Assembly: GCA_934636305.1 (NCBI GenBank)
Contig: CAKUAM010000014.1
Location: forward strand, 1-37,041
Length of the DNA stretch: 37,041 nt
From: an uncultured Oscillospiraceae bacterium
GTDB lineage: Bacteria; Bacillota; Clostridia; Oscillospirales; Oscillospiraceae
Direction of reading: 5' to 3'
Of this stretch, positions 2,351 through 32,807 are shown one piece after another. Under the pieces are notes generated by a model. The model saw only the letters and a program-made list of their open reading frames with translations. It was not told the origin of the DNA and made no database searches. Position numbers and translations under genes: made by a program. Within the stretch, counting starts at the first letter, position 1, and the number at the start of each line of letters is the position of its first letter.

Positions 2351-2482
2351 TGCGCGGGAAAGATCCAAGAAAACCGAAGCGGTTTTCTTGGCCGCTTTAA
2401 GGGGTCCGGGGGAAATCGGAATCCCCCGGGTTCCTCTTTCTTTGCTATACTTTCTTTCTCGGAGAAGCGAGAAAGAAAGTAT
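2351..2482 (+). repeat. Hairpin-mosaic repeat, copy R1
   Basis: Three hairpins in a row: 2365-2376/2380-2391 (CCAAGAAAACCG, loop AAG), 2406-2413/2422-2429 (CCGGGGGA/TCCCCCGG), and 2447-2461/2468-2482 (15-bp stem, loop GAGAAG). The same series recurs at 32.67-32.81 kb, and parts recur at 6.61 and 24.7-25.1 kb. It lies between two convergent genes, beyond a separate terminator. No convincing gene is present here; short open frames across it are by-products of the repeat. Confidence 0.8.
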
Positions 2483-2529
2483 GAATACCGATCTGCTTGT
2501 GGCAGCAGCGGCATGGAAAATCCATTTGA

Positions 2530-4122
2530 TTATTTCTCCCAGCGGTCGATCAGCGCCTGAATCTGCGCGGTAAAGCGCGTAAGATCCCGGTTGGACCGCT
2601 CCTTGCAGCCCTTCGCAACGAGCAGCAGCTTCTGCGCTGCGGCGATGAGCGCATCAAAGACACTCTTTTTCCGGGCTGCGCCGCTCTTTTCGATGCGCCG
2701 TCCCTCCGGGCAGGCGGTCAGCTGGCCTGCGGCAAGATCAAACTGTGTGCCGGAGTAGGGGGCAATGGCGATGTAACCCTTCTGCTGCAGCAGGGCCTGA
2801 AAGGCTTCGCAGCCCTCGTCGTCGCCGTGATTGACAAAGACAACCTCGGGCTTGCGGTCAAACGCCTCCACCCAGTCGAGCAGTCCCTTCTGATCGGCGT
2901 GGCCGCTCGTGCCGTGCAGCACGGCAATTTCCGCGTTCACGGCGATTTCCTCGCCAAACAGGCGAACCTCCTTCACGCCGTCGAGCAGCGCACGGCCAAG
3001 CGTGCCCTTGGACTGATAACCGGCAATCAGGATGATATTCTCCGGCATCCAGAGGTTGTGCTTGAGATGGTGGCGGATGCGGCCTGCGTCGCACATTCCG
3101 CTGGCCGAGAGAATGACTTTGGGGCGCGGATCGTTGTTGATGGCTTTGGAATCCTCGACGCTGACAGCCAGCTGCAGGCCGGGACACCAAATGGGGTTCT
3201 GACCGCTTTTCAGAACGGCCTGTGTCTCCGGGTCAAAGCAGTCGGTATCGCACTGGAGAAAGACGCTCGTCGCCTCCTCAGCCAGCGGGCTGTCCACGTA
3301 GACAGGGAACCCATCATGACCGTGGACGAGCTTTTTCTGCTTGATCTCGCGCAGCAGATATAAAAGCTCCTGCGTCCGGCCCACGGCGAAGGCCGGGATA
3401 ATGACGCTGCCGCCGCGGTCAAAGGCCCGCTGCAGCACGTCCGTCAGCTCGGCGCGGACATCCTTTGGCTTGTCATGCAGGCGGTTGCCGTATGTGGATT
3501 CAACGACAAGATAATCCGTCTGCGCAACCGGCTGCGGGTCGTTGAGAATGGGCTGATTGGTATTGCCGACGTCACCGGAAAAGACAATTTTTTTCTCGAT
3601 ATCGCCCTCGCGCAGCCAAGCTTCAATGCAGGCCGAGCCCAGCAGATGGCCAATATCCGAAAAGCGAACCTGCAGACCGTCCGCGATCCGGACAGTCTCA
3701 CCATAGCGGCAGGGACGGAACAGCCGGACCGCGCCCTGCGCGTCCTCCACAGTGTAAAGCGGCTCGACAGGCGGAAGGCCCGCGCGCTCAGCCTTGCGTG
3801 TTTTCCATTCGGCGTCGGACTGCTGGATGTTGGCAGCATCGCGCAGCATGACGTCCGAGAGGCTGCAGGTGGCGGGCGTGGCGTAGATTTTGCCGCGGAA
3901 GCCGTCCTTATACAGCTTCGGCAGCATGCCGGCATGGTCGATGTGTGCGTGTGTCAGGAAAACGGCAGAGATCGCATTGGCGGCGACGGGCAGGGGAATG
4001 TTCTCATAGACGTCCGTGCCCTGCTCCATGCCGCAGTCGATCAGATAGCTTGCGCCGGACAGCTCCAGCAGCGTGCAGCTGCCGGTGACTTCGTGCGCGG
4101 CACCGATAAATGTAAGTTTCAT
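2530..4122 (-). CDS. MBL-fold beta-CASP RNA metallo-hydrolase
   Basis: A 530-residue protein of the metallo-beta-lactamase/beta-CASP nuclease group (CPSF73/RNase-like). Visible motifs are the metal-binding LTHAHIDHAG near residue 55, SGDVGN near 180, ESTYGNRLH near 207, the beta-CASP segment PAFAVGRTQELLYLL, SASGMCDAGRIRHHL, and the C-terminal RMMBL motifs LHGTSGHADQ and VFVNHGDDEG. All expected metal ligands seem present, so an active zinc-dependent RNA endo- or exonuclease is likely; the exact substrate is unknown. The ATG at 4122 has GGAGG 9 bases upstream, and a TATACT-like -10 lies at 4145-4150 on the same strand. A basic C-terminal tail of about 60 residues after the RMMBL domain may bind RNA. 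It is transcribed alone, convergent with the secreted-protein gene. Confidence 0.88.
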   Translation of the reverse strand: MKLTFIGAAHEVTGSCTLLELSGASYLIDCGMEQGTDVYENIPLPVAANAISAVFLTHAHIDHAGMLPKLYKDGFRGKIYATPATCSLSDVMLRDAANIQQSDAEWKTRKAERAGLPPVEPLYTVEDAQGAVRLFRPCRYGETVRIADGLQVRFSDIGHLLGSACIEAWLREGDIEKKIVFSGDVGNTNQPILNDPQPVAQTDYLVVESTYGNRLHDKPKDVRAELTDVLQRAFDRGGSVIIPAFAVGRTQELLYLLREIKQKKLVHGHDGFPVYVDSPLAEEATSVFLQCDTDCFDPETQAVLKSGQNPIWCPGLQLAVSVEDSKAINNDPRPKVILSASGMCDAGRIRHHLKHNLWMPENIILIAGYQSKGTLGRALLDGVKEVRLFGEEIAVNAEIAVLHGTSGHADQKGLLDWVEAFDRKPEVVFVNHGDDEGCEAFQALLQQKGYIAIAPYSGTQFDLAAGQLTACPEGRRIEKSGAARKKSVFDALIAAAQKLLLVAKGCKERSNRDLTRFTAQIQALIDRWEK

Positions 4123-4230
4123 CTGAAAGCCTCCTTCTGTTTTCAGTATAGCACAGATTCACCCGGCAGGCACAGTGTTTTTTCGGGATGTCCATGCGAA
4201 AAGAAAAATGAAAAAAATCAGAAAAAGGGC

Positions 4231-4259
4231 TTGCATTTTTTTCGCTTCTATGCTAGTAT
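4231..4259 (+). promoter_or_regulatory. Promoter of tRNA-Arg
   Basis: TTGCAT at 4231-4236 and TAGTAT at 4254-4259 are separated by 17 bases and lie about 27 bases before the mature tRNA, which fits a sigma-A promoter. Confidence 0.65.
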
Positions 4260-4285
4260 AGTGGGGCGCTGAGGAAGCGTGGTAT

Positions 4286-4362
4286 GCGCCGGTAGCTCAG
4301 TTGGATAGAGTGACTGGCTACGAACCAGTAGGTCGGGGGTTCGAGTCCCTTCCGGCGTACCA
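4286..4362 (+). tRNA. tRNA-Arg (anticodon ACG)
   Basis: A complete 77-base cloverleaf with CCA encoded. Acceptor GCGCCGG pairs with CCGGCGT (G-U at the first pair), the D arm has GCTC/GAGT, the anticodon stem is ACTGG/CCAGT with loop CTACGAA, and the T loop is TTCGAGT. The anticodon is ACG; A34 is expected to be edited to inosine, reading CGU, CGC and CGA. A terminator hairpin starts at the last base of the CCA end. Confidence 0.97.
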
Positions 4363-4397
4363 GAAAGAGCTGATTTCAAATGAAATCAGCTCTTTCT
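4363..4397. terminator. Bidirectional terminator after tRNA-Arg
   Basis: A near-17-bp perfect stem (GAAAGAGCTGATTTCA with its complement) and a 2-base AA loop, followed by TATTTTT on the plus strand. The minus-strand small gene ends at 4402, so the hairpin can serve both. Confidence 0.85.
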
Positions 4398-4401
4398 ATT
4401 T

Positions 4402-4572
4402 TTACATGCCCTTGGAAATGGATGTGATGGCCTTTTCGGCACCCTGCTCAATGGCCTTGGCGGCCTGCTTGGTCATGCGGTAAGCGTCCGAATTTTTGGG
4501 CAGCATCATGACGCCCAGTGCACCGGCGGCCATGCCGGCGCCCATTGTCAGCAGAAAGCTGCGCATTTTCAT
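4402..4572 (-). CDS. Small membrane-anchored protein, function unknown
   Basis: A 56-residue product beginning MKMRSFLLTMGAGMAAGALGVMMLPK. Residues 4-24 form one hydrophobic, Gly/Ala-rich segment, followed by a charged, probably helical tail (KQAAKAIEQGAEKAITSISKGM). The layout resembles small YtxH-like proteins, but I do not recognise the family with certainty. The start at 4572 was chosen because GAGGGG lies just upstream and the hydrophobic segment then sits at the N-terminus; a longer frame reaching 4866 would overlap the divergent decarboxylase-like gene and is unlikely. Its promoter region is shared with that gene. Confidence 0.65.
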   Translation of the reverse strand: MKMRSFLLTMGAGMAAGALGVMMLPKNSDAYRMTKQAAKAIEQGAEKAITSISKGM

Positions 4573-4684
4573 GCTCTCACCCCTCTCAGCAATAGATTGT
4601 GTGTTTTTTCGCGTGCTATGTCTGGCAAATCTCTGTTCAAGTGGCGCAATCTGTGATATGATACGAAAAAAGAGGGGGGATACC

Positions 4685-5605
4685 GTGTCGATTGATGTTT
4701 TACAGGAAAGAATCCGGAGGCTGCAGAATCCGACCATGGTGGCAATCAGTCCGTCGGTGCTGGATCTGCCGGCTGCAATCAAGCAGACGTGTACCGCGGA
4801 ATACGGCAGCACGCTCCGGGCCGCAGCGGAGGGATACCGGCAGTTCAGTATGGGGATCCTTGACACGCTGGAGGGGATTGTGCCGGCGGTGAGCGTGGAG
4901 ACCGGCAGCTTTTATGCCCTTGGCGCAGAGGGGGTTGCGGCCATGCAGGATGTGCTGCGCGGCGCGGCAGAGCGGGGATATTATGTGCTGCTGGATCTGA
5001 TGCGCGGCGATATCGGTCCGACGGCGCAGACCATGGCAGATGCCTGCTTCGGCGCGGTGCAGGTGGGCGATCAATCGTTTACCCCGTATCCATGCGATGG
5101 CGCGCTGCTGAGCGGGTATCTCGGCAGTGACTCGGTGATGCCGTTTGCACAGTATTGCAGAAAGGGAAAAAATGTATTTGTCGTTGCGCGCAGTTCCAAC
5201 AAATCGGCGCGCGAGGTGCAGGATCTGCTCTCCGGCGACCGGATCGTCTACCAGGTGATGGCGGATCTTGTGATGCGCTGGTCGGCAGGGCTGTTTACCA
5301 GGTCTGGCTACAGTGAGATGGGAATTGCCGTCGGCGCAACGAATCCGACAGTGCTGCAGGCGCTGCGGCGAAAGTATGATAAGCTGTTTTTCCTTGTGCC
5401 CGGCTACGGTACGCAGGGGGCAAGCGCACACGATGCATCGCTGGCCTTTGACGCAGCCGGCTATGGCGCGTGCGTGATTGTCGGCAGAAGCATTCTCAAT
5501 GCCCACCTGCGTACACCGCAGGCCGGTGAGGATTACCGCACGAGCGCGAAGCAGGCGGCTATCGCCATGCGTGAGCAGCTGCTGCGGTATGTGAAGGTAT
5601 TCTGA
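4685..5605 (+). CDS. Orotidine-5'-phosphate decarboxylase-like protein, catalytic residues altered
   Basis: A 306-residue TIM-barrel protein matching type-2 OMP decarboxylase (PyrF) in length and layout. Recognisable parts are the N-terminal strand MVAISPS (residues 18-24), the core strand YYVLLDLMRGDIGPTAQT, VPGYGTQGA and a late IVGRS phosphate-site Arg. Active enzymes carry DxKxxD here, in type 2 usually DAKRGDI. In this protein it reads D104-L-M106-R-G-D109, so the catalytic lysine is Met. The usual Asp of the first strand (VGLDP) is Ser22. Phosphate-binding elements look retained. It may be a non-catalytic paralogue or bind another nucleotide; a normal pyrF would then be expected elsewhere in the genome. 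The GTG at 4685 follows AGGGGGG by about 6 bases; the frame extends upstream, but without a better site. No other pyrimidine gene is adjacent. Confidence 0.8.
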   Translation: MSIDVLQERIRRLQNPTMVAISPSVLDLPAAIKQTCTAEYGSTLRAAAEGYRQFSMGILDTLEGIVPAVSVETGSFYALGAEGVAAMQDVLRGAAERGYYVLLDLMRGDIGPTAQTMADACFGAVQVGDQSFTPYPCDGALLSGYLGSDSVMPFAQYCRKGKNVFVVARSSNKSAREVQDLLSGDRIVYQVMADLVMRWSAGLFTRSGYSEMGIAVGATNPTVLQALRRKYDKLFFLVPGYGTQGASAHDASLAFDAAGYGACVIVGRSILNAHLRTPQAGEDYRTSAKQAAIAMREQLLRYVKVF

Positions 5606-5621
5606 GTACAGGATAAAAGGT

Positions 5622-5662
5622 GCAGGCGTCTGTACGGCAAGAGCCGCCGTGCAGATGCCTGC
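5622..5662. terminator. Bidirectional terminator between convergent genes
   Basis: GCAGGCGTCTGTACGGC pairs with GCCGTGCAGATGCCTGC through 17 pairs including two G-U, with a short loop. The minus-strand exit is CCTTTTATCC, and the plus side has only a short T-run. Confidence 0.65.
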
Positions 5663-5668
5663 TTTGGA

Positions 5669-5941
5669 TTATCGTCCGGTGACGCTGCGGCCGGTGGTAC
5701 CGGCAGTCCCGGTGGTACCGGATGTGCTGCCGGTATAGCCCGGGTTGTAGCCAGGCACATAGGAGCCGTTGTACATGCCGCCGTGGGTTCCGTCATAGCC
5801 ATTTGTACCGTTTACGCGGCCATCTCTTGTTGTCGAGACATTGGAATAGCCGTCGTAATAATACGGCTGCGATGCGGCGCAGGCAGTCAGCATGGTAGCC
5901 AGCATCAGCGCGGCAAACAGCAGAATCAGTGCTTTTTTCAT
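5669..5941 (-). CDS. Small Gly/Thr/Tyr-rich lipoprotein
   Basis: A 90-residue product. MKKALILLFAALMLATMLTAC is a lipoprotein signal peptide with lipobox LTAC, so Cys21 should be lipidated and the protein anchored outside the membrane. The mature part is low-complexity: YYYDGYSNVS, then turns with GTNGYDGTHGG, YVPGYNPGYTG and GTTGTAGTTGR. No enzymatic domain is visible. The ATG at 5941 has AAAGGAGG 7 bases upstream, a near-ideal site. It is divergent from the ferredoxin gene. The function is unknown; an exposed flexible envelope protein is the most that can be inferred. Confidence 0.8.
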   Translation of the reverse strand: MKKALILLFAALMLATMLTACAASQPYYYDGYSNVSTTRDGRVNGTNGYDGTHGGMYNGSYVPGYNPGYTGSTSGTTGTAGTTGRSVTGR

Positions 5942-6057
5942 GGAAAATCCTCCTTTTTGCAATACAGCCTTGTGCTGGCAGTAGTTTGCGTGGCAGAACG
6001 AAAAATATGCTGGCGGTTTTTTCCGCCATATGATGGATGGATTCGATAAAAAGTGAT

Positions 6058-6086
6058 TGAAAGTCGACGAAATAGTCTGTATAATG
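6058..6086 (+). promoter_or_regulatory. Promoter of the ferredoxin gene
   Basis: TTGAAA at 6058-6063 and a consensus TATAAT at 6081-6086 have a 17-base spacer and lie 37 bases before the start codon. Confidence 0.8.
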
Positions 6087-6123
6087 ACAGATAGAAACAC
6101 ATAAAAGGAGAAGGAGACCACCT

Positions 6124-6510
6124 ATGAAAAAGCTTTCCATCAAAAAGGATGTGCAGTGCATGGCATGTCTGGAGTGCGTGCGCGCATGTTCCACGGCATA
6201 CTATAAGGAATTCGACCCGGATAAGGCATGTCTGCAGATTGTCCAGCGCGGCGACAAGGTCAAGCCTATGGTCTGTGTCCAGTGCGGCAAGTGCATGCAG
6301 GCATGTCCCGCCGGTGCAATCACCCAGAATCCGAAGGGCGTGTACATGATTAACCGCAAGACTTGCACCGGCTGTGGCAAATGCGTGGAGGCATGTCCGT
6401 TTGGCCTTGTCGTGAAGGCAGAGAATGTTGCCTATTCGACCAAGTGCACGGCCTGTGGGATCTGTGTGAAGGCATGTCCCATGGAACTGCTGGAAATCGT
6501 GGAAAAATAA
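6124..6510 (+). CDS. 4Fe-4S ferredoxin-type electron carrier with four cluster motifs
   Basis: A 128-residue protein with four CxxCxxCxxxC motifs: CMACLECVRAC (from residue 12), CVQCGKCMQACP (51), CTGCGKCVEACP and CTACGICVKACP. Sixteen cysteines in this spacing fit up to four [4Fe-4S] clusters, as in polyferredoxin-like electron-transfer subunits (HycB/CooF type) rather than a two-cluster ferredoxin. No signal peptide is seen, so it should act in the cytoplasm or on an inner membrane face. The start has GGAGAAGGAG upstream and a consensus promoter; a terminator follows directly. It is thus transcribed alone, without an adjacent oxidoreductase to name its partner. Confidence 0.88.
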   Translation: MKKLSIKKDVQCMACLECVRACSTAYYKEFDPDKACLQIVQRGDKVKPMVCVQCGKCMQACPAGAITQNPKGVYMINRKTCTGCGKCVEACPFGLVVKAENVAYSTKCTACGICVKACPMELLEIVEK

Positions 6511-6527
6511 ATCAACGGCGATAGACA

Positions 6528-6568
6528 AACCCAGCCGGCAGACACACAAAATGTCTGCCGGCTGGGTT
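6528..6568 (+). terminator. Terminator of the ferredoxin gene
   Basis: A perfect 17-bp stem (AACCCAGCCGGCAGACA with TGTCTGCCGGCTGGGTT) and a 7-base loop. The T-run is short, so it could also act in the other direction. Confidence 0.75.
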
Positions 6569-6610
6569 ACTATTATCGGATGATATCTCAATAGAAAAGA
6601 CATTGTTTTG

Positions 6611-6667
6611 TCTCTGACGCGCCATACTTTCTTTCTCGGAGAAGCGAGAAAGAAAGTATGAAACACG
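6611..6667 (+). repeat. Hairpin-mosaic repeat, copy R2 (short)
   Basis: It consists of CTGACGCGCC followed by a 16-bp perfect stem (6623-6638/6645-6660) with loop GAGAAG and then AAACACG. The join between CTGACGCGCC and the hairpin is the same as at the left end of the 24.7-25.4 kb copy. It sits between the convergent ferredoxin and NhaC genes. The remaining bases to 6745 contain no gene I can support. Confidence 0.75.
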
Positions 6668-6745
6668 TTTCATTTGGAGAAGTAAAAAGAAGATGCTGAG
6701 AAATGCTGCCCCAATTTTCCAATTTGCGGCTGGAAATTTTTGTAG

Positions 6746-8365
6746 TTATGCTGCAGCTTTATTTTTTGCCCGCAGGACAAACATAACAGCCAGCATCAGA
6801 ACCAGGCTGACAAGCCAGGTAACCAAAACATTTTGTACAAAGCCGGCGACAATGAAGCCGACAAAGCTGACAATGGCGACGGTGACGGCGTAGGGCAGCT
6901 GCGTGGAGACATGGTTCAGATGCTCGCACTGCGCGCCGGCAGAGGCCATGATGGTGGTGTCGGAGATGGGGGAGCAATGGTCCCCGCAGACGGCGCCTGC
7001 GCAGCAGGCGGAGATGCCGATGATAAGAAGCTTGCTGTCAGTGGGGAATACCGCTGTGACAATCGGAATCAGGATGCCGAACGTGCCCCAGCTTGTGCCG
7101 GAGGCAAAGGCCAGCACGCAGGCAACCAGGAAGATCACAGCCGGCAGCATGCTGTACAGACTCTCGGAGGCGACAAACATCAGGTCATGGACATAGACGT
7201 CTGCGCCAAGGGAGTTGATCATGGCCTTGAGGGAAACAGCCAGCGTCAGGATGATGATCGGAGGCACCATGGCGATAAAGCCCTTGGGCACGCAGGCCAT
7301 AGCGTCCTTAAAGGAAATTACCTTGCGCGCGACCAGATAAATCACTGTGAGGATGAGCGCGATAAGGCCGCCCCAGGGCAGGCCGATAAAGGCGTTCGTG
7401 TTGCCGAAGGCACCGATGAAGTCACCGGCATTTTCGGTGCCGCCCCAGGCGTCAACGCCGAAGAAGCCGCCGACGTAGACCATGCCAAGCGTGCAGGTAA
7501 TGATGAGGACAATGACCGGGAGAAGGAGGTCAATGACGCGGCCCTTCGGGTTCGGCGTCTCGGTTTCGCCGATCTCCAGAGCGGAGAGCTCACCCTTGGC
7601 GGCTTTTGCCTCAAAGGTGCGCATGGGGCCGTAATCAAACTTCATGCTTACAAGCAGGAGGATAAACACAAAGGTCAGGATCGAGTAGAGGTTATAGGGG
7701 ATGGCGCGGACGAACAGCTCAATGCCGCTCATGCCGGTGTCCAGCCCCTCTGCTGTGGAGGAGACGGCGGCGGCCCAGGAGGAAATCGGCGCGATCATGC
7801 ACACAGGCGCTGCCGTGGCGTCAATGAGGTACGCCAGCTTCGGGCGGGAAATCTTATGGCTGTCGGTGATGGGGCGCATGACGGAGCCGACGGTCAGGCA
7901 GTTAAAATAGTCGTCGATGAAGATGAGCACACCGAGCACGAACGTTGCCAGCTGCGCGCCGACGCGTGTTTTGATGTGCGTTTCTGCCCAGCGGCCAAAC
8001 GCGGCAGAGCCGCCGGCGGCGTTGACGAGCGCGACAATGATGCCCAGCAGAACAAGAAACAGGAAAATGCCTGCGTTGCCGGAAAGCGCGGAGATCAGGC
8101 CATCGTTGACAATGGCGTCCAGCGTGGCAACGGGATGGAAGCCGCAGGTGAACAGGGCGCCGACGAGCACGCCGACAAAGAGCGCGCTGTAGGCCTCCTT
8201 CGTGATAAGGGCGAGAACAATTGCGATGATCGGCGGCAGCAGCGACCATGCCGTGTTGGCAAGCGCGGCACCGTTGGCGCTGCGTATGCCCGCGATGATG
8301 AGCAGCGCGGCAATGGCCACCACGACGGCAATGCTGACGATGGTGCTGGAACGGGACTTTTTCAT
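6746..8365 (-). CDS. NhaC-family antiporter/transporter under lysine riboswitch control
   Basis: A 539-residue integral membrane protein with about 11-13 hydrophobic segments. It resembles the NhaC Na+/H+ antiporter family (IFIDDYFNCLTVGSVMRPITD, ASGTSWGTFGILIPI, CGDHCSPISDTTIMAS). The usual family role is exchange of Na+ for H+ or for an organic substrate. Because a lysine riboswitch with a terminator precedes it, the likely substrate is lysine or a related amine, as known for some lysine-riboswitch-controlled NhaC-like genes; this is inference. The start at 8365 (MKKSRSS) is chosen because GAGGAG lies 8 bases upstream and between terminator and gene; the frame remains open upstream through the riboswitch, but that is not coding. 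It is a single-gene unit. Confidence 0.88.
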   Translation of the reverse strand: MKKSRSSTIVSIAVVVAIAALLIIAGIRSANGAALANTAWSLLPPIIAIVLALITKEAYSALFVGVLVGALFTCGFHPVATLDAIVNDGLISALSGNAGIFLFLVLLGIIVALVNAAGGSAAFGRWAETHIKTRVGAQLATFVLGVLIFIDDYFNCLTVGSVMRPITDSHKISRPKLAYLIDATAAPVCMIAPISSWAAAVSSTAEGLDTGMSGIELFVRAIPYNLYSILTFVFILLLVSMKFDYGPMRTFEAKAAKGELSALEIGETETPNPKGRVIDLLLPVIVLIITCTLGMVYVGGFFGVDAWGGTENAGDFIGAFGNTNAFIGLPWGGLIALILTVIYLVARKVISFKDAMACVPKGFIAMVPPIIILTLAVSLKAMINSLGADVYVHDLMFVASESLYSMLPAVIFLVACVLAFASGTSWGTFGILIPIVTAVFPTDSKLLIIGISACCAGAVCGDHCSPISDTTIMASAGAQCEHLNHVSTQLPYAVTVAIVSFVGFIVAGFVQNVLVTWLVSLVLMLAVMFVLRAKNKAAA

Positions 8366-8381
8366 ACATACACTCCTCAAT

Positions 8382-8411
8382 AAAAAATGCGTCATGACGG
8401 AGCCATGACGC
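8382..8411 (-). terminator. Riboswitch-linked terminator
   Basis: On the minus strand GCGTCATG and CATGACGC form an 8-bp stem followed by ATTTTTT. It lies between the lysine aptamer and the ribosome-binding site, as in transcription-attenuating lysine riboswitches. Lysine binding is expected to favour termination. Confidence 0.88.
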
Positions 8412-8430
8412 AATCCAAGGGTATATTTGC

Positions 8431-8630
8431 GCATGACAGCTCTCCACCTCTGCGCATCTTTTTGTCTGCAGCACAGAAATGACAGTCCGCAGGATATTCT
8501 CCTGCGGCCCAGACACGGCCTGTGGGAACAGGGCCGGGCCTTCGGCGGCATTCCCCTTTCCAGCTGTGCCCGGTTCCCGCCGGATGACGCACGCTGTACT
8601 GATGTTTGCCGCAGCCTCTATCGATGACAT
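8431..8630 (-). ncRNA. Lysine riboswitch (L-box)
   Basis: Read on the minus strand it contains the L-box core in order: GATAGAGGCTGCG, GGAAAGGGGAATGCC, GCCGAAGG, CTGTCAT, and finally GGAGAGCTGTCATGC, where CTGTC closes the P1 helix with GATAG. The length of about 200 bases, the strong promoter on one side and the terminator on the other fit a complete transcription-control riboswitch for the NhaC-type gene. Confidence 0.93.
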
Positions 8631-8634
8631 GTCC

Positions 8635-8662
8635 ATTATACAAACCGGCAGAAATTTGTCAA
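8635..8662 (-). promoter_or_regulatory. Promoter of the riboswitch-NhaC unit
   Basis: On the minus strand a consensus TTGACA (8657-8662) and a consensus TATAAT (8635-8640) are 16 bases apart, just before the aptamer. Confidence 0.88.
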
Positions 8663-8768
8663 TCAATTTATGAATAAATTTTGAATTTTCTGCGGGAAAT
8701 GAGAAAAACGACGCGGAATGTGGCGGCTTTTTCCGGTCTGGCATACGATAGGGCAGGAGGGGTGCACC

Positions 8769-9023
8769 ATGTTTTCGTATTTTTTTACATTTCGCGGACT
8801 GACAGCTGCCCAGTCGGCGCGGAGTGTGCTGCATGATGCAGGGATCTGGACGCGCCTGCAGCGGGCACCGGCGGAGATTTCCGGACTGGGCTGTGCCTAT
8901 GCGGTGCACGTGCAGGCGCAGGAGGCGGCCCGCGCCGCGCAGCTGCTGCGCGTGTGGCAGAAGCCGCCGTCTGGCATCTACCGGCTTTATGCCAACGGTT
9001 TTATCGAGGAGGCTGCGCTGTGA
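8769..9023 (+). CDS. DUF3343 protein (putative sulfur/selenium carrier-like)
   Basis: An 84-residue protein beginning MFSYFFTFRGLTAAQSARSVL. It matches the small DUF3343 family, a ferredoxin-like fold often described as a putative Se/S carrier, in length and layout: a first strand ending in F, helix, AGIWTRLQRAPAEIS, then SGLGCAYAV with the family cysteine. GGAGGGG lies just upstream of the ATG. Its stop overlaps the start of the next gene (GTGA), so the two are translationally coupled. Since the neighbour is a cysteine-desulfurase-like enzyme, this protein may accept the persulfide or selenium that enzyme releases; that is inferred from context. I could not pick a convincing promoter in 8663-8768. 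Confidence 0.8.
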   Translation: MFSYFFTFRGLTAAQSARSVLHDAGIWTRLQRAPAEISGLGCAYAVHVQAQEAARAAQLLRVWQKPPSGIYRLYANGFIEEAAL

Positions 9024-10135: not shown

Positions 10136-10166
10136 AAACTTCCTGAAACTTTCTTCCGGGTTGCAC

Positions 10167-10195
10167 TTGCGAAGCGTGGGATTATGGAGTATAAT
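10167..10195 (+). promoter_or_regulatory. Promoter of the cdaA-rsgA operon
   Basis: TTGCGA at 10167-10172 and a consensus TATAAT at 10190-10195 have a 17-base spacer, 36 bases before cdaA. No further terminator was seen until after rsgA. Confidence 0.75.
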
Positions 10196-10231
10196 TCACA
10201 ATATCTATAAGTATCAGTGGGAGAATGACCT

Positions 10232-12339: not shown

Positions 12340-12360
12340 GAGAATTGGAGGAGAAGTTAC

Positions 12361-13239: not shown

Positions 13240-13253
13240 CAGGAGGCGCGGAC

Positions 13254-14316: not shown

Positions 14317-14318
14317 CC

Positions 14319-21395: not shown

Positions 21396-21442
21396 CGGCG
21401 GAGGCGCAGCATGCACGATTTTCTGAAAAAGGAGCGAACCTG

Positions 21443-23707: not shown

Positions 23708-23717
23708 GGCGGTTTGC

Positions 23718-24596: not shown

Positions 24597-24730
24597 TCAA
24601 TCGGCTGGAGACTGAGCCAGTAGGTAGGGATGCGTCCAACACGCCAGCTTTCCTGTTTGCTTCTGCGGGAGAGGGAAAAGCTTTGCAATAGTTTCTTTTT
24701 TGTGCTGTCTGTACAATCTGGGGATGTTCA

Positions 24731-25413
24731 GTGTGTTTCATCCTTTCTTTCTCGCTTCTCCGAGAAAGAAAGTATGGCGCGTCAGAAACGGTCACGACGG
24801 AACGAGCCACCGCAAGCGATGGCTCTAATCCTATGTGGCCGCTTCTTCCTTTCCAAACCGCAAACGCTTCGCTGGTTTGCGGTTTGGAGCCCGGGGGATT
24901 TCGATTTCCCTCAGACTTCGTCAGAATCAAAGCTTCCGAAACGAAGCCTTGCGCAGCAAGGCTTCTTATTCTGGCGCTTTGTTCCTCCTCTTGCGATGCA
25001 GACCGCAGGCTGGGTCTGCATCGCAGAAACCGCTTCGGTTTTCTTGAATCTTTCCCGCGTTGTCTGGAAGCCCAATGCGAATCCGCACTGCGTAGCAAAT
25101 TTTGCTGGCAGTACGGATTTTTTGCACCTATGAAACTGCAACTGCTGTCAAATTTGATTCCGAAATGACGGGCGGCGCGTAGTAAGACGCGGTGAGGTGA
25201 GTTGGTGCGATATGAGTACTGCCCAATCTGTTTCTCACCTAAATTCAGATGCAGATTGCACCAAACGTACCCAAGCGCCCCTTTTCTCCCCCATCTTTTC
25301 CGGCAGCCAACCAGCGACATCGTCGCTGGTTGGAAAGGAAGAAACGGCCACAGAGGATCAGAGACGGCGTTTACGGCGGCTCGTTCTGTCGTGGCCGTTT
25401 CTGACGCGCCGTC
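24731..25413 (-). repeat. Hairpin-mosaic repeat, copy R3 (large, with terminal inverted repeats)
   Basis: A 680-bp intergenic mosaic. It includes the GAGAAG-loop hairpin (24743-24754/24761-24772), a 13-bp hairpin at 24853-24865/24875-24887, a 10-bp one at 24943-24952/24956-24965, a 13-bp one at 24992-25004/25013-25025 and a 12-bp one at 25307-25318/25322-25333. The core 24776-25410 is bounded by perfect 16-bp inverted ends (GGCGCGTCAGAAACGG), and similarity extends inward for about 80 bp. Bases 25045-25303 match 32431-32690 in opposite orientation. Open frames run through it in several directions but carry no recognisable domain; I do not call a gene. 24597-24730 also holds nothing I can support. 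Confidence 0.8.
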
Positions 25414-25438
25414 GGAAGCCAAACAAACCTGATCATTT

Positions 25439-25475
25439 AAAATTGCCAGGGACGCATTGCGTCCCTGGCAATTTT
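25439..25475. terminator. Bidirectional terminator at the flotillin 3' end
   Basis: AAAATTGCCAGGGACGC and its perfect complement form a 17-bp stem with a 3-base loop, followed by TT on the plus strand and by TAAATG-type sequence on the minus. It ends exactly where the flotillin stop begins. Confidence 0.85.
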
Positions 25476-27014: not shown

Positions 27015-27135
27015 ATGGGGCTCCTTTCTTTTTCTGTTCTGTTCGTTCGGTTCTATCTTTTGGGTTTGCTTCTGTACCCGCCACATCTCTATAGACGGCT
27101 CACCACCAAAAATGTTCCATGCTCTGCCCGATTTC

Positions 27136-27297
27136 TCACTGTACCCGGTAGCCTTCCATCACCAGCCGGATCACAATCCCCCAAAATTCACGCTCCCCGG
27201 CGCAGAAATGCCGGCTGTTCGGAATCTCATGGAAGGAGATAATCCGCCGTTCCTCCTCCAGCCAGGCTTCAAAGCATGGATCTTCTTTTCGTTCCAC
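27136..27297 (-). CDS. Small hypothetical protein upstream of flotillin
   Basis: A 53-residue frame, VERKEDPCFEAWLEEERRII..., ending EFWGIVIRLVMEGYRVQ. It starts with GTG at 27297, with GGAGG 9 bases upstream, and ends at TGA 27136-27138. It lies directly behind a good minus-strand promoter (TTGCAT, 17 bases, TATTAT) and 121 bases before the flotillin start, so the two are probably co-transcribed. It is acidic and aromatic, has no membrane segment or signal peptide, and contains two cysteines. I recognise no family with certainty; a short soluble partner is possible. Evidence is the site, promoter and codon pattern. Confidence 0.55.
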   Translation of the reverse strand: MERKEDPCFEAWLEEERRIISFHEIPNSRHFCAGEREFWGIVIRLVMEGYRVQ

Positions 27298-27325
27298 CTG
27301 TCATTCCTCCCTGGTTCTCCACAAT

Positions 27326-27351
27326 AATGTCGTAATAAATAATACGACATT
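27326..27351. promoter_or_regulatory. Palindromic operator over the flotillin-operon -10
   Basis: AATGTCGTA and TACGACATT form perfect 9-base arms around 8 A/T bases. On the minus strand the -10 TATTAT (27339-27344) lies inside it, with -35 TTGCAT at 27362-27367 and a 17-base spacer. This fits a repressor site on the small-protein/flotillin promoter; the adjacent XRE gene is the obvious candidate repressor. Confidence 0.6.
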
Positions 27352-27366
27352 TGTTATTAAAATGCA

Positions 27367-27400
27367 ACGATTTTTCAAAGTATAATAATCGAAAAATCGT
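27367..27400. promoter_or_regulatory. Second palindrome, over the XRE gene -10
   Basis: Perfect 10-base arms ACGATTTTTC (27367-27376) and GAAAAATCGT (27391-27400) flank 14 bases that include a consensus TATAAT at 27381-27386, 28 bases before the XRE start. It may be an autoregulatory site, although its sequence differs from the other palindrome. Confidence 0.5.
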
Positions 27401-27414
27401 AGGTAGGTGATCGT

Positions 27415-27729
27415 GTGACAGATATTCTCGGAATGATCCGAAAAAACCGTGAGGCAAGAGGCTGGACAGAATACCAGCTTGCCGAACACTCCGGCCTGCC
27501 GCAGTCAACCATTTCCTCCTGGTACAAAAAAGGGATGACGCCCTCGTTTTCCTCGCTGGAGCGGATCTGCGACGCATTCGGGCTGACGCTGTCGCAATTC
27601 TTTGCTGACGGTGAGCAGGCACTCGCTCTGACGCCCGCGCAGCGCAGCATGCTGGAACGGTGGAACAAGCTTACCGGCAGCCAGCAGACCGCACTGCTCG
27701 CACTTCTGGACACCATGACAACCTCTTAG
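27415..27729 (+). CDS. XRE-family helix-turn-helix regulator
   Basis: A 104-residue protein with a Cro/C1-type HTH in residues 5-62: MIRKNREARGWTEYQLAEHSGLPQSTISSWYKKGMTPSFSSLERICDAFGLTLSQFF. The C-terminal third (ALTPAQRSMLERWNKLTGSQQTALLALLDTM) is probably a short dimerisation helix. It starts with GTG and has only a partial ribosome-binding site (AGGTAGGTG). It is divergent from the small-protein/flotillin unit, and the shared 117-base region holds two palindromes and both promoters. Local repression of flotillin and itself is the natural guess but is inferred from layout only. Confidence 0.85.
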   Translation: MTDILGMIRKNREARGWTEYQLAEHSGLPQSTISSWYKKGMTPSFSSLERICDAFGLTLSQFFADGEQALALTPAQRSMLERWNKLTGSQQTALLALLDTMTTS

Positions 27730-27756
27730 GGTGTATTATAATTCCGCCGGGTACAG

Positions 27757-27800
27757 AACGCCCCATATCAGGATACTGCAGTATCCTGATATGGGGCGTT
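27757..27800. terminator. Bidirectional terminator between XRE gene and cobQ
   Basis: A perfect 44-base palindrome (AACGCCCCATATCAGGATAC onward, centre TGCA) followed by TTTTTC on the plus strand. It ends 8 bases from the cobQ stop, so it serves both convergent genes. Confidence 0.85.
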
Positions 27801-27808
27801 TTTCTTAT

Positions 27809-29272
27809 TCAGACCTCGCGGCGCAGCACCCGATAGACATAGTCCATATCCAGTCCCCGGCGCACACCATCCGCCAGCAGATCATACTGCTGGTTTTTAT
27901 ATTCCTGCAAATCAAAGCTCTCCAGCCTGCCCGGATCGATCCCCCGCTGCGCGCAGACAGCCCGCAGCACGCCGTCTGCAATTCCAGGTGCGTCGAACAC
28001 GCCGTGGATATATGTGCCGTAGACATTGCCGCTGCCGGTCAGCACCGGGCGCGGCCTGTCACTGCGGCCCATGTGGATTTCATACCCCTCATAGCGCAGC
28101 CCATTCAGCCCGGCCAGCATCCCTTCTATCCCGGAAAATGTCCCGGATGTCTGCGTCTGTACCTTTTTCCCCTGGAACACCGTCTGTATCTCCAGCAGGC
28201 CAAGGCCGCGGATCTCCCGCAGACCGGCCGCCTCCACGCCGTCAGGGTCCGACACAATGGTACCCAGCATCTGATAGCCGCCGCAGATTCCGAAAACCAG
28301 CGTTCCGCGCGCAGCCTGCTTGCAGATAGCTGCCTCCAGACCGCTCTCGCGCAGCCATTTGAGATCCGCAATGGTGCTCTTGGTCCCAGGCAGCAGAATC
28401 AGATCCGGGCTGCCCAGCGTCTGCACGCGGTCAACATACCGCAGCGACACATTTTCGTAGCGCTCAAACGGCGAAAAATCCGTAAAGTTGGAGATTCTGG
28501 GCAGTCGGATCACCGCAATATCCAGAAGCTTTCGCGCCTCATTTCTGGAAAAACGCACCGACAGGCTGTCCTCGTCGTCAATATCGACATGCAGATATGG
28601 CACCACGCCAGCCACCGGCACGCCGCAGAGCTCCTCAAGCATGGTAAGTCCGGGCTCCAGGATTGCGCGGTCGCCGCGGAACTTGTTGATGATGGTTCCC
28701 TTGATGCGCGCACGCTCCTCCGGCTCCAGGAGGGCCACCGTGCCATACAGCTGGGCGAATACGCCGCCGCGGTCAATATCCCCGATCAAAAGAACCGGCG
28801 CGTCCACGAGCCTGGCGAGCCCCATATTGACAAAGCTGTCACACTTGAGGTTAATTTCCGCTGGACTGCCTGCACCCTCGATGACAATCACGTCGTATTC
28901 CGACGCAAGGCTCTCATACGCCTGCTGCACCGCCGGCAGATACTGCTGCTTGCGGCGGAAATACTCCGCCGCCCCCATGTTGCCCTGCACATGGCCATTC
29001 ACGATAACCTGGCTGCCGACGTCTGTCGTCGGCTTGAGCAGAACCGGGTTCATGCGCACATCCGGCTCGATGCCCGCAGCCTCCGCCTGTACAACCTGCG
29101 CGCGGCCCATTTCGCCGCCATCCTTTGTGATAAAGGAGTTCAGGGCCATATTTTGCCCCTTGAATGGAGCGACACGGTAGCCGTCCTGTTTGAAAATCCG
29201 GCAGAGTCCCGCCGCCAGCATGCTCTTGCCGGCATTTGACATCGTCCCCTGCAGCATAATATTCAGCGCCAT
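27809..29272 (-). CDS. cobQ: Cobyric acid synthase CobQ/CbiP
   Basis: A 487-residue ATP- and glutamine-dependent enzyme that amidates four carboxyl groups of the corrin ring in cobalamin synthesis. The N-terminal dethiobiotin-synthetase-like domain has the P-loop [10 protein letters not shown] (about 7-17), MALNSFIT, and [13 protein letters not shown]. The C-terminal class-I glutaminase domain has the nucleophile cysteine in [11 protein letters not shown] (about residue 328) and the catalytic His in YIHGVFD. All visible motifs are intact. It overlaps the cobD-like gene by 10 bases. The other cob/cbi genes are not in this window, so a complete pathway is not shown. Confidence 0.94.
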
Positions 29273-30321
29273 GTTTCATCCTCCATCACACGCCGCAGCG
29301 CAGCCAGCAGCGCCTCATTTTCTTCCCGCAGCCGTACTGCCGTTCGGTACCACCCGGGGCCGAGCCCTGGATAGTTGCTGCAGTTCCGGATTGCAATCCC
29401 CTCTCGCCGCAGCGCAGCATCCAGACCGATAGGCGCGCGGAACAGCAGATAATTGGCTTCCGACGGGTATACAGAAAACCCGAGTGCCTGCAGGCCCTGC
29501 TGCATAGACGCGCGCTCCGCCGGAAGCATCGCCCGTGTCTCCTGCAGAAATTGCGTCTGCTGCAGCGCGGCGACGCCCGCCTGCTGCGCAAGCAGCGACA
29601 CATTCCATGGCTGCATCCCTGCCGCCATTTTTTCAAGCAGCGCGGTATCCCACGTCAGGCAATAGCCCACACGGATCCCCGCAAGCGCATAATTCTTTGT
29701 AAACGCCTTTAAAAGCAACACATTCGGATAGTCCGGCAGCAGCCAGGCTGTGCTCCGCTGCTCCGTAAAGTCCAGAAAGCATTCATCCAGCAGCACGCGC
29801 GTCCCCTGCTTCCGGCAGCATGTCAGCACCTTCTCCAGCAGCGGGCGCGGAAAGCACCTGCCGGTCGGATTATTGGGGGAGCAAAGGAACAGAACCTCCG
29901 GCTTTTGCTCCGCAAGAAATGCAAGCAGCCCCTCATCCGGCAGAAACTCACGCTCTGCAGAAAGCGTATACCGCACTACGCGCGCACCATAATAGGACGC
30001 TGCCGCACTGTATTCCAAAAAGGTCGGCGCCAGTTCTGCCGCGCAGACAGGCCGCAGCGCCTGGCAATAGGCATAAATCAGCTCCGCGGCGCCCGCGCCG
30101 CAGAGCACAGCCCGCGCCGGCACATGCTCGTATGCTGCAATGGCCGAGACAAGCGCCCGGCAATAGGGGTCTGGGTACTGCCGCACCTGCGCAGCAGCCG
30201 CCCGGATGGCAGCCACCACGCCCGGCGGCGTGCCAAGCGGATTGGTATTCGACGAAAAATCCAGCGTAATCTGTTCGCTGTAAACATCCCCGCCATGCGG
30301 GTTTTTCTGGTTATATAGCAT
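29263..30321 (-). CDS. cobD: Threonine-phosphate decarboxylase CobD-like
   Basis: A 352-residue class-I PLP enzyme. The N-terminal [24 protein letters not shown] matches CobD rather than histidinol-phosphate aminotransferase. Further motifs are [30 protein letters not shown] and the PLP lysine in [20 protein letters not shown] (about residue 208). CobD makes (R)-1-aminopropan-2-ol phosphate, the linker of the cobalamin lower ligand. The partner cobQ directly follows with an overlap, supporting a cobalamin role. HisC-like aminotransferase activity is the main alternative. The gene begins only 38 bases after the ROK regulator gene, with a small GC hairpin and no T-run between, so read-through from that gene is possible. 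Confidence 0.87.
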
Positions 30322-30359
30322 AATGTCTTGGTTCCTTCAGGCGGCTGCGCCGCTTCTTT

Positions 30360-31520
30360 TTACAGCCCGTTGACAAACTGATCGAGTACACGCAGCGCAG
30401 CGCCCGCCGCTGTGGCCTCCGTCTTGAATTTACAGGGAAACACATACGTCCTTGAAAACGGCGTAAAGATGCTGCGGGCGTCCACCTTTTTGTACAGATC
30501 ATCCAGAAATGGGCCAATATACGCGCCGATATAGCCGCCAATTACAATGGTGCAGTCAAAAAGCATCTTCAGATTGTGGATGGCCAGCGCAAGATTTTCC
30601 GTATACGTCTCCCACCGTGCGGCCGCGCCGGAGTCCCCCGCCGCAAGCAGCGCAAAAAAGCGCGGCAGGCTGCCTTCGCAATAGCTGTCCAGAACGATTG
30701 TATTGCAGAGCGTATCAAAGCAGCCCACCCGTCCGCAGTAGCACCGCCTGCCGCTGTGCGTGTCAATCACCATATGCCCAAGCTCTCCGGCCCGGCCATT
30801 ATCGCCTGCATACAGCTTTCCGCGCAGATAAACAGAGCTTCCGACACTGCTGTTCAGGCTGAGATAGACCATGTTCATCGGGCTCTCTGTCCGCCATACC
30901 TCGGCAAAGCCAGCCGTCTCTGAATCGTGATAAATCCGAACCGGATATGGGATATAATCCTCAAAATACTTTCTTGTAATGCCGGTAAAGTCTGACGTCA
31001 TGCCGTACACGGTGCTCTCCCCATCCTCGCCGACAAGGCTTGGAATGGCAATGCCGACGCCGAGCAGCTGCGCCTCCGGAAGCCCCGTCTGGACGCGCAC
31101 CTGCTCAATCATGTCCGCCAGCTGCCCCATATAGTCGCTGTCATGCAGATCCAGCTGGCAATCTGCGCGCTTCGTGTACAGAATTTCGCCGTTCATATCC
31201 ACACTGACGCAAATGAAGTGGTGCAAAGACAGGAAAATTCCAATTGCGAACCAGTTTTTTGCCGCCGCAATATACGACACCGCATTCCGCCCGCCCGTGT
31301 TTTTTACCACGTGCCCACGTGCAATCAGCTTTTCCGCCTCCAGCGTCTGCAGCGCCTGCTTGATGGTGGGCAGACTCAGCCCAAGGTCCGTAAAAAGAAG
31401 CTGCTTGGTTGCCGAGCCATGGTTGAGAATATACCGGAAAATTGCCTGCTTGTTTTCCGTCTTTGTTTTTACGTCGTTTTGCTCCCTTGGTATGACACAC
31501 GCCCCGTTTCTCCGTTTCAA
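30360..31520 (-). CDS. ROK-family transcriptional regulator
   Basis: A protein of up to 386 residues. An N-terminal winged helix (NKQAIFRYILNHGSATKQLLFTDLGLSLPTIKQALQTLEAEKLI) precedes a ROK sugar-kinase-like domain (ICVSVDMNGEIL, LLGVGIAIPSLV) with the zinc motif CYCGRVGCFDTLC and GRAGELGHMVI. This is the XylR/NagC-type arrangement of sugar-responsive repressors. The start is uncertain: no ATG or GTG precedes the HTH, and TTG at 31520 is the best available; AAGGGAG near 31487 does not lie before a usual start codon. It is divergent from a broken alcohol dehydrogenase and upstream of cobD on the same strand. The sugar ligand is unknown. Confidence 0.85.
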   Translation of the reverse strand: MKRRNGACVIPREQNDVKTKTENKQAIFRYILNHGSATKQLLFTDLGLSLPTIKQALQTLEAEKLIARGHVVKNTGGRNAVSYIAAAKNWFAIGIFLSLHHFICVSVDMNGEILYTKRADCQLDLHDSDYMGQLADMIEQVRVQTGLPEAQLLGVGIAIPSLVGEDGESTVYGMTSDFTGITRKYFEDYIPYPVRIYHDSETAGFAEVWRTESPMNMVYLSLNSSVGSSVYLRGKLYAGDNGRAGELGHMVIDTHSGRRCYCGRVGCFDTLCNTIVLDSYCEGSLPRFFALLAAGDSGAAARWETYTENLALAIHNLKMLFDCTIVIGGYIGAYIGPFLDDLYKKVDARSIFTPFSRTYVFPCKFKTEATAAGAALRVLDQFVNGL

Positions 31521-31537
31521 TCTGGAATATATATTTT

Positions 31538-31674
31538 ATCATTTTGTAAATTAGCTTGTAAAATGTGATACTGCACAAAATACAGCCAATATTTTCGTCA
31601 AAAAATAGATTGACATACACAATTCCATTCGATACTATTCTATGCATTTGTTTTGCAAATCATTTTGTAAAATG
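31538..31674. promoter_or_regulatory. Promoter and repeated operator-like sites between ROK gene and dehydrogenase remnant
   Basis: A plus-strand promoter has a consensus TTGACA (31610-31615), a 17-base spacer and TACTAT (31633-31638). The 13-base word ATCATTTTGTAAA occurs twice, at 31538-31550 near the ROK start and at 31659-31671 just downstream of the plus promoter. The second lies in CATTTTgtAAAATG (31661-31674). These are good candidates for ROK-regulator binding sites. Confidence 0.6.
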
Positions 31675-31700
31675 CATTCAAAGCTATGGAGGACACACAT

Positions 31701-32308
31701 ATGAAAGCGACTGTATCAGCTGTCATTGAAAAAATGATGACCGGCGCAACCCTGCCGGGCAACAGCACCGTCATGTCGGCCTTGGCCCGGTCGGGCTTGC
31801 GGCGCTGATGCTCTGCCGCGCACTTGGCGCGGAAAAGCTGATTGGTGTGGAGATGAATGAATACCGCATCCAGATGGCGCAGCGGCTGGGGCTTGTGGAT
31901 CACATTGTCCGGCCCTCTGATACGGCAGTCGAGGAGATTCTGGCCCTGACAGGCGGCCACGGCGTGGAGCGTGCCATTGATTGCTCTGCCTCGGACGCTG
32001 GTCGTCAAACAGCCGTCCGTGCAACAAGACAGTGGGGCAAAATTGCTCTCGTCGGCGAAGGAAACGCCATGACGCTTGCTCCAAGCCCGGATCTGATACA
32101 CGGTCAAAAGAGCATTTACGGCTCCTGGGTCACCTCCACGTGGCGGATGATGGATCTGGTCGAGCATCTGGTACGCTTGGGCATTCATCCCGGGGATCTG
32201 ATCACTGACGAGTTCCCTCTCGAGCGTGCTGGAGAGGCCTATGCGCTGATGGCCAGCGGCCGCTGCGGCAAGGTAGCGGTCACTTTCCCCGAAAGCAAGG
32301 ATTATTAA
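31701..32308 (+). pseudogene. Zinc-type alcohol dehydrogenase remnant (internal deletion and frameshift)
   Basis: A ribosome-binding site (GGAGG) and ATG at 31701 start a 35-codon frame MKATVSAVIEKMMTGATLPGNSTVM... ending at TGA 31806-31808. Close to 31773-31778 the reading changes by one base into the frame VGLGPVGLAALMLCRALGAEKLIGVEMNEYRIQMAQRLGLVDHIV, which runs to 32308. The latter is the NAD(P)-binding half of a medium-chain dehydrogenase (GxGxxG Rossmann motif, then GGHGVERAIDCSAS and the C-terminal TDEFPLERAGEAYALM). The catalytic GroES-like domain with its zinc ligands is missing, by a deletion of roughly 130-140 codons after about residue 11. It is most like sorbitol/threonine-type dehydrogenases. 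An active product is very unlikely. Confidence 0.85.
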
Positions 32309-32411
32309 CATAATCCATTTACAATGCTTATACCTCAGTCAGCACGTCGGAAATGTTCTAAGCTGGATGAACTGCTTCAACAATCACGTAACCTTGCTCA
32401 GCCTCCGACGG

Positions 32412-32807
32412 CCCCATCTTTTCCGCCTTGCCGGAAAAGATGGGGGAGAAAAGGGGCGCTGGGTTACGTTTGGTGCATACTGCATCTGAATTTAGGCAGC
32501 AAGCAGACCGGATAGAAGTCATATCGCACCAACTCACCTCACCGCATCTTACTACGCGCCGCCCGTCATTTCGGAATCGAATTTGGTAGTTGTTGCGGTT
32601 TAATAGGTGCAGAAAATCCGTACTGCCAACAGAATTTGTTACGCCGTACGGATTCGCCGGAGTCTTTCAGGCAACGCGGGAAAGATCCAAGAAAACCGAA
32701 GCGGTTTTCTTGGTCGCTTTAAGGGGTCCGGGGGAAACCGAAATCCCCCGGGCTCCTTTTTTCTTTTGCCAGCGTTTTCTTTTTGGAGAAGCAAAAAAGA
32801 AAATGCT
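32412..32807 (+). repeat. Hairpin-mosaic repeat, copy R4
   Basis: It starts with a 14-bp perfect hairpin (32412-32425/32432-32445). About 260 bases (32431-32690) match R3 at 25045-25303 in inverted orientation. Then comes the R1-like series: CCAAGAAAACCG hairpin (32687-32698/32702-32713), CCGGGGGA hairpin (32728-32735/32744-32751), and a stem with loop GAGAAG at 32771-32807. It lies between the dehydrogenase remnant and the E1 gene, which converge. No gene is supported in 32309-32956. Confidence 0.8.

Follow-up and report, generated by a model that had tools for sequence, protein, structure and literature searches.

The repeats that we describe here have their closest described counterparts in three systems. 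Intrastrand triplex motifs of the PIT/ITxF kind were catalogued over 5246 genomes and plasmids by Holder et al. (2015; PMC4666352), whose main text defines the class IV order (Y1-Y2-R) used here and describes the 23 TMECO motifs of Escherichia coli as G/C-rich and intergenic, with more rearranged loci, without mobility genes and including 5 inverted pairs. Repetitive extragenic palindromic (REP) sequences and bacterial interspersed mosaic elements (BIMEs), with their REP-associated tyrosine transposase (RAYT), are short intergenic hairpins in mosaic arrays of alternating orientation (see PMC2817692). Miniature inverted-repeat transposable elements (MITEs) and enterobacterial RU repeats (see PMC2759123) are non-autonomous, intergenic and nested, with inverted ends. 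We compared with these systems a family of hairpin mosaics found in four places of a 37,041-nt stretch (hereafter the window; GC content 57%) of contig CAKUAM010000014.1, from an uncultured Oscillospiraceae bacterium. Sequence comparison establishes this as a multi-copy family with a preserved module order, two- and three-strand covariation, inverted end motifs and, in two genomes, a bias toward gaps between convergent genes; mobility and triplex formation are inferred.

As had been predicted, all four places carry genuine repeats, as confirmed by sequence reading, comparison and folding. No shuffle of any copy folded as well as the native sequence (z-scores of -6.6, -5.7, -16.7 and -6.8 for copies 1 to 4, with 200, 200, 20 and 100 shuffles, respectively). 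The copies do have common modules but are not equivalent, since an ordered H1-H2-H3 unit is present in copies 1 and 4 only. This unit of ~130 bp, which we call the A-element, consists of hairpin H1, an AAGG-bearing linker, hairpin H2, a pyrimidine tract Y1 and hairpin H3. Copy 4 (32404..32812, plus strand) is the most complete, with a module M4 on its left, an A-element on its right and two inverted triplex motifs as bounds. M4 spans ~270 bp and starts with the hairpin CCCCATCTTTTCC-GCCTTGCC-GGAAAAGATGGGG (32412-32445), which together with GAGAAAAGGGG forms a minus-strand triplex motif (32412..32456) whose purine arm is outermost. The A-element of copy 4, on the plus strand, comprises H1 (32687..32713; arms CCAAGAAAACC and GGTTTTCTTGG), H2 (32721..32758; loop near AAATCGAAAT) and a triplex motif (32757..32803) made of Y1 (32757-32767, TTTTTTCTTTT), the 5' arm Y2 (32774-32784), the loop GGAGAAGC and the purine arm R (32793-32803). 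Copy 1 (2353..2485, plus strand), in the convergent gap 2284-2529, is a sole but full A-element, in which H1 (CCAAGAAAACC-GAAGC-GGTTTTCTTGG, 2365..2391) covaries with CCAGAAAAACC/GGTTTTTCTGG in the relative G001 introduced below, and is followed by H2 (CCGGGGG-AAATCGGAAT-CCCCCGG with a T-rich tail, 2400..2435), a putative third strand Y1 read from the sequence as the mirror of Y2 (CTCTTTCTTT, 2434..2443) and H3 (2447..2482; Y2 2450-2460, loop, R 2469-2479). Copy 2 (6623..6660, plus strand) is a lone GAGAAG hairpin H3, preceded by TCTCTGACGCGC. Copy 3 (24733..25410, minus strand) holds M4 and an A-element broken by extra hairpins, which interrupt its CCAAGAAAACCG hairpin, plus two inverted M5 units. 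The first of these, of ~105 bp (24776..24880, plus strand), is 81% complementary to its partner (25306..25410, minus strand), which sits inside the M4 front hairpin, and an M5 unit precedes H3 (24739..24776, minus strand).

For comparison, we used relatives of the source organism. The nearest named one found, G001, is the metagenome-assembled genome (MAG) RUG14158 (Ruminococcaceae), from which came every one of the seven contigs matched by a pattern built on the left arm of H1; at 73-89% identity over common stretches, it represents a related species and not the window's own. Four further genomes, G023, G171, G254 and G179, were drawn from the family of G001.

The central finding concerns Y1. 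A parallel (Hoogsteen) partner of R has to be the mirror of Y2, and in copies 1 and 4 the pyrimidine tract upstream of the GAGAAG hairpin indeed mirrors the 5' arm. The tract and the purine arm of H3 read CTCTTTCTTT and GAGAAAGAAAG in copy 1, TTTTTTCTTTT and AAAAAAGAAAA in copy 4, and TTTTCCCTCTTT and AAAAGGGAGAAA in G023. In a permutation test on 23 sequence types hand-picked from the loci (20,000 permutations, linker length unlimited), Y1 scored 210 as a mirror against its own R, compared with 151.7 ± 6.9 after permutation, a level reached by none of the 20,000. The direct-repeat score was 176 versus 150.4 (4/20,000 as high), which corresponds to a z of 4.0 versus 8.4 for the mirror, and type by type the mirror scored above the direct repeat in 14. 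Among the 13 types drawn from the window and the family of G001, the mirror reached 137 versus 93.8 (0/20,000) and the direct repeat 103 versus 90.0 (197/20,000); among the 10 that came from plasmid records or viral contigs, the mirror reached 73 versus 69.1 (19/20,000), and the direct repeat was without signal. Covariation of Y1 with R was also found in 24 combinations of linker, Y1 and R collected by script (z 7.9). Retention of Y1 by pairing with the AAGG linker was considered and discarded, there being no covariation between the two in the same combinations (z 0.2).

An open scan of stretches of the window, G001, G023 and G254 (linker of at most 14 nt, no mismatch, symmetric blocks excluded) gave, at 9 nt, 37 mirror-only motifs, 23 ambiguous ones fitting both models and no direct-only one, versus none in one shuffle per sequence; these numbers count copies, many near-identical, in stretches that were mostly selected for bearing elements. 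In G023, the scan found 45 motifs. When the linker had first been capped at 8 nt, the mirror and direct counts were 5 and 22 in G023, 2 and 2 in the window, 9 and 4 in G001, and 3 and 0 in G254. This cap excluded the mirror alignment of the most frequent G023 type, whose CTCCTC core reads alike both ways. Since the settings were altered after that result, the permutation test, being free of any linker cap, is to be preferred. The direct-repeat model, weaker than the mirror in the permutation test and in the open scan, was rejected, and the mirror symmetry appears not to be a product of direct or inverted duplication. Similarly, when 187 hairpins were collected copy by copy and 139 assigned to H3 or M4, scoring the 56 with a pyrimidine-rich upstream sequence (48 types; the other 83 were omitted) favored the mirror in 23/29 cases for H3 (equal in 4, worse in 2) and in 15/19 for M4 (equal in 2, worse in 2). 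Three consecutive blocks of ~8 nt or more, able to form a Y.R-Y or R.R-Y triplex in one strand, are found in two of the four window copies, 1 and 4, which score 10 and 11 triads and are both recovered by the open scan with perfect 10-nt blocks. G023 retains the full triplex motif, which has partly decayed in G001 and in the window.

The hairpins themselves covary as well. In the M4 front hairpins (n = 20, 15 distinct rows), 99.5% of the cells are paired, the covariation score is 0.296 versus 0.074 after shuffling (0/500 shuffles as high) and both sides have changed at 5 of 14 pairs (6/500). For H1 plus H2 (12 rows), 96.9% are paired (0/500) and the covariation score is 0.218 versus 0.124 (0/500), with double changes at 4 of 19 pairs, a level reached by 117/500 shuffles, and further pair types at a level reached by 500/500; related sequences may exceed such shuffles even when no structure is involved. 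Across the 15 rows of M4 front hairpins, two adjacent pairs (columns 5-6 with 31-32) vary next to invariant loop-side neighbors, and could be a specificity position.

In copy 4, the motif is found at both ends of the element. On the minus strand, CCCCTTTTCTC precedes the M4 front hairpin as a second mirror tract, so that each end of this copy has its purine arm pointing outward, and variants of this tract track the stem in three other loci (L073, L074 and L110). A-elements of G023 lying less than 1.5 kb apart form eight pairs, all inverted (minus-plus) with the purine arm outward and 707-1088 bp long; together with the M5 pair in copy 3, these provide the terminal inverted repeats that characterize MITEs. 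A motif of similar design, TTTTCTTTGGTTACTTTCTTT with hairpin arm AAAGAAAGTAAC, occurs in three viral contigs and six plasmid or megaplasmid records (Ilyobacter, Variovorax, Caballeronia and three from Pasteurella), 10 of its matches being on the Ilyobacter replicon. This motif had no match in a phage collection, nor did a 44-base version of it in E. coli genomes. In the single record read for each of Variovorax, Pasteurella and Caballeronia, the motif too forms inverted pairs whose purine arms face outward. In the Variovorax locus L229, the gap 1818-2617 contains a second, TMECO-looking inverted pair (CCCTCTCCC...GGGAGAGGG...GGGTGAGGG) inside the A/T-rich triplex pair.

By its motif, the present family falls within the broad PIT/ITxF kind of potential intrastrand triplexes, and single motifs may already be in the database of Holder et al. 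It shares with this kind, as presented in the main text of PMC4666352, a three-block motif of hairpin plus third strand, many intergenic copies and inverted pairs and, as with TMECO, copy-number swings between relatives and no linked mobility genes found. However, our motif is of A/T-rich or mixed pyrimidine type and of class IV, whereas TMECO is of G/C-rich purine type, and the TTTCTTT-type tracts of copies 1 and 4 do not fit the TMECO pattern given there (CCCTCNCCC N3-6 GGGNGAGGG N3 GGGNGAGGG). Moreover, it is an end module of a hairpin mosaic of 130-490 bp, and its tracts are asymmetric, which lets mirror and direct models be distinguished. Placement differs too, our family being convergent-biased in two genomes, while TMECO is reported to be commoner upstream of genes in that main text, which does not use the word "convergent". 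We recognized no description of the present family, or of three-strand covariation in such repeats, in the literature searched, which left out most subscription journals.

The element is a multi-copy family with high copy number and intergenic location: there are 34 repeat matches in G001 and 48 H2 loops in G023, where one of 16 sites in one set lies inside a weak called open reading frame. Sequences related to the H2 core are present in G023, G171, G254 and G179. Between G001 and G023, the stems of H1 and H3 have been replaced with the module order preserved, H1 of G023 being CCAGTAGGGGG.../...CCCCCTAACTGG and H3 CTTTCTCCCTTTTG.../...CAAAAGGGAGAAAG. A family-wide search matched at least 7 of 300 genomes (two candidates per genome scored), and, within the genus of G023, a query of the element plus flanking genes had matches in 31 of 34 genomes, some of these matches being genes. 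A phylum-wide spread of H2 was rejected, since of the 29/398 genomes matched, G001 among them, the loci read in the others were due to chance: all 19 H2-matching loci read outside G001 fall within open frames (215-732 codons), and none has a stem of more than 5 pairs. A copy 1 query found no match in plasmids, nor did two A-element patterns in viral contigs. Eleven of the 30 element sites of G001 adjoin contig ends (L050, L052, L056, L076 and others); assembly of metagenomes seems to break off at the repeats, and MAGs probably understate their copy numbers. Several G001 gaps (L054, L058, L060-L063 and L070) also contain further repeat families chained to M4 and A-element modules, namely GTAGGGGCCGATG...CATCGGCCC, CCCCTTG...AAGGGG units and a tRNA T-arm-like GGTTCGAATCCCC string.

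As for placement, our analysis confirms that all four window copies are in convergent gaps. Seven of the eight flanking genes are supported by Pfam, the exception being 13-2283. Beside copy 4, 31808-32308 (plus strand) matches the C-terminal piece of a zinc-binding dehydrogenase (Pfam), probably a gene remnant, and the last gap is therefore also convergent. Copies occupy four of the seven convergent gaps of the window, counting the 39-bp tRNA-Arg/4402 gap, and a module search found none in its eight other gaps of at least 40 bp. The original prediction that the repeat is placed exclusively between convergent genes is refuted by the relatives, which carry copies between co-directional and some divergent genes, yet a bias remains. 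The 30 sites of G001 comprise 9 convergent, 7 co-directional, 3 divergent and 11 contig-end ones (10 of which adjoin a gene 3' end), with 4, 3, 0 and 6 for the A-element sites alone. The stretches of relatives were fetched around elements, which inflates fractions of occupied gaps but leaves them comparable across gap types. On this basis, the element is present in 9/35 convergent, 7/119 co-directional and 3/52 divergent gaps read in G001 (Fisher, convergent versus co-directional, 0.002). G023 has 20 convergent, 15 co-directional and no divergent sites among 48 (13 without assigned class), and shows a gradient from convergent (15/26 gaps read) through co-directional (14/103) to divergent (0/30), with a Fisher p of 1e-5 for the first two. 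Because the element lengthens its own gap, a comparison limited to gaps of at least 150 bp is fairer, and gives 15/25 versus 14/51 (p = 0.011). The convergent bias is a property of some lineages. A strand-specific rule (H3 end toward the stop codon) looked promising in the first G023 loci and was dropped when co-directional gaps split 7 versus 8. Elsewhere in the window, a lysine riboswitch (RF00168, 77 bits) lies at 8429-8628 on the minus strand, upstream of a minus-strand gene of the Na+/H+ antiporter family.

Could the family be explained by functions or elements of a known kind? If H2 with its T-rich tail, and a strong H3, were a bidirectional transcription stop that ended transcripts ahead of the facing gene, copies would be kept in convergent gaps for that reason. 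Consistent with this, the scan lists H2 with its tail as terminator-like in both copy 1 (2400-2435) and copy 4 (32721-32758), which weakens the original claim that termination alone does not explain the repeat; more than half of the convergent gaps read in G023 are occupied, and inverted pairs would act in both directions. Against this, there are other terminator-like hairpins nearby: the separate terminator claimed for each copy can be seen by eye at all four, although the pattern scan lists only 32919-32948. In addition, orientation in the co-directional gaps of G023 is random, sites exist in divergent gaps (three in G001, all M4-only, and one in G254), and a terminator has no need for a Y1-Y2 mirror. 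We regard this explanation as unlikely. A transcribed structured RNA (3' untranslated region or small RNA), in which the triple helix has a protective or regulatory role for the transcript, would account for the strong folding, the three-strand covariation and a two-strand covariation that includes a few G-U pairs. However, five element-bearing loci had no Rfam match up to E = 1 and the window elements none at gathering score, there is no fixed orientation toward genes in G023, and one copy (L058) begins ~10 bases from a called stop codon, leaving no room for a promoter of its own. We consider an RNA function quite improbable.

The likeness to REP/BIME put forward in the original prediction holds insofar as this is a mosaic family of short palindromic intergenic units in arrays, with REP/BIME-like behavior and convergent enrichment, but the expected transposase was not found. 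Mobilization by a RAYT would fit the short hairpins, mosaic units, inverted pairs and intergenic sites, and a search for Y1_Tnp (PF01797) gave one match in G023. Nevertheless, that gene sits among a different repeat, GGGGACGGTT, in a 2.7-kb locus with no A-element match, and there is no Y1_Tnp match in G001 for 34 repeat matches, although this MAG may be incomplete. The present family also differs from REP/BIME in having no linked RAYT found, a third strand in its units and a different sequence. We view this explanation as very improbable. The repeats around the Y1_Tnp match (GGGGACGGTT/AACCGTCCCC; L129, G023:C45) also fill the middle of inverted A-element pairs (gaps of L078, L079 and L205), and are likely a separate REP/RAYT family nested in these pairs. 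Alternatively, the element might be an ordinary MITE of some DDE transposon yet to be recognized, its hairpins and mirror tracts being by-products of inverted ends. The long inverted ends of the G023 pairs, the inverted M5 units in copy 3, the multiple copies and the nested insertions speak for it. Against it, inverted ends do not explain a three-block motif at each end, and H1 and H3 stems have been swapped between G001 and G023 with order retained. Neither a target duplication nor a parent transposase was found, the enzyme search having been limited to Y1_Tnp, and the ends are triplex motifs, unlike those of MITEs and RU repeats. We hold an ordinary MITE to be rather unlikely.

We favor, with slightly better than even confidence, a reading in which these are triplex-ended non-autonomous mosaic repeats whose triplex is selected, their placement bias arising from tolerance downstream of genes. 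The outer ends, when complete, are potential intrastrand triple-helix motifs (Y1, linker, Y2, loop, R), and the triplex would form in single-stranded DNA or in a transcript. Selection would retain the triplex because the ends are recognized as a structure while the element is copied, and copies would be allowed to persist downstream of genes and be eliminated near promoters. Many copies, differing sites among relatives, nested insertions and one gap without an element are points for mobility. In that gap, the G001 ortholog of the one holding copy 2, the element is absent; the flanks have diverged and the gaps are otherwise barely alignable, which makes gain and loss indistinguishable. An A-element flanks the 3' end of rsgA in both the window and G001, with different right-hand neighbors, and the genes flanking one G023 pair are on different contigs in G254, G743 and G735. 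This is an uncontrolled lead toward possible rearrangement at elements, confounded by contig breaks.

Several observations weigh against the favored reading. No transposase was linked to the family, Y1_Tnp being the sole enzyme searched for (G001 and G023), and no target-site duplication was defined, the exact limits of the element having proved elusive in the gaps read. A direct repeat fits better in 3 of the 23 types and ties in 6, and among the ties is a G254 chimera whose Y1 and hairpin stem from different types, with a Y1-R mismatch and a score of 6. H3 lacks Y1 in window copies 2 and 3, and Y1 is found at only 2 of the 13 A-element sites of G001. The remaining ones have a perfect hairpin without Y1 (5/13) or no such perfect purine hairpin (6/13, one of which, L053, has a mismatch-bearing H3), so that the right-end motif of most G001 copies is a plain hairpin or lost. 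Adjacent C+ triads, as in TTTTCCCTCTTTG, are disfavored at neutral pH, and the opposite strand would then need a purine-type triplex. The convergent bias is not seen in G254 (1 convergent, 6 co-directional and 1 divergent; n = 8), nor in the 7 of 10 Ilyobacter matches that were checked (2, 3 and 2), where the gene table has omissions and a locus tag is skipped in two of the seven gaps. Finally, orientation in the co-directional gaps of G023 is not fixed, and the gene calls for G001, G023 and G254 come from a home-made codon-usage caller. A broader proposal, that these are mobile intergenic elements in several phyla, with inverted ends selected as triple helices and read by an enzyme still to be identified, is one that we put forward as speculative and doubt at present.

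Under this broader proposal, three-strand covariation would be a sign, at the level of sequence, of triplexes under selection rather than of chance low-complexity tracts. The present families also bear on whether intrastrand triplexes matter in bacteria. As the blocks of TMECO are nearly symmetric, its sequence can scarcely tell a triplex from a repeat. The asymmetric, fast-changing families described here can separate the two, for Y1 tracks R, and does so as a mirror. The question would thereby become directly testable, and the triplex end motif would be a marker for a common class of repeats in this bacterial family.

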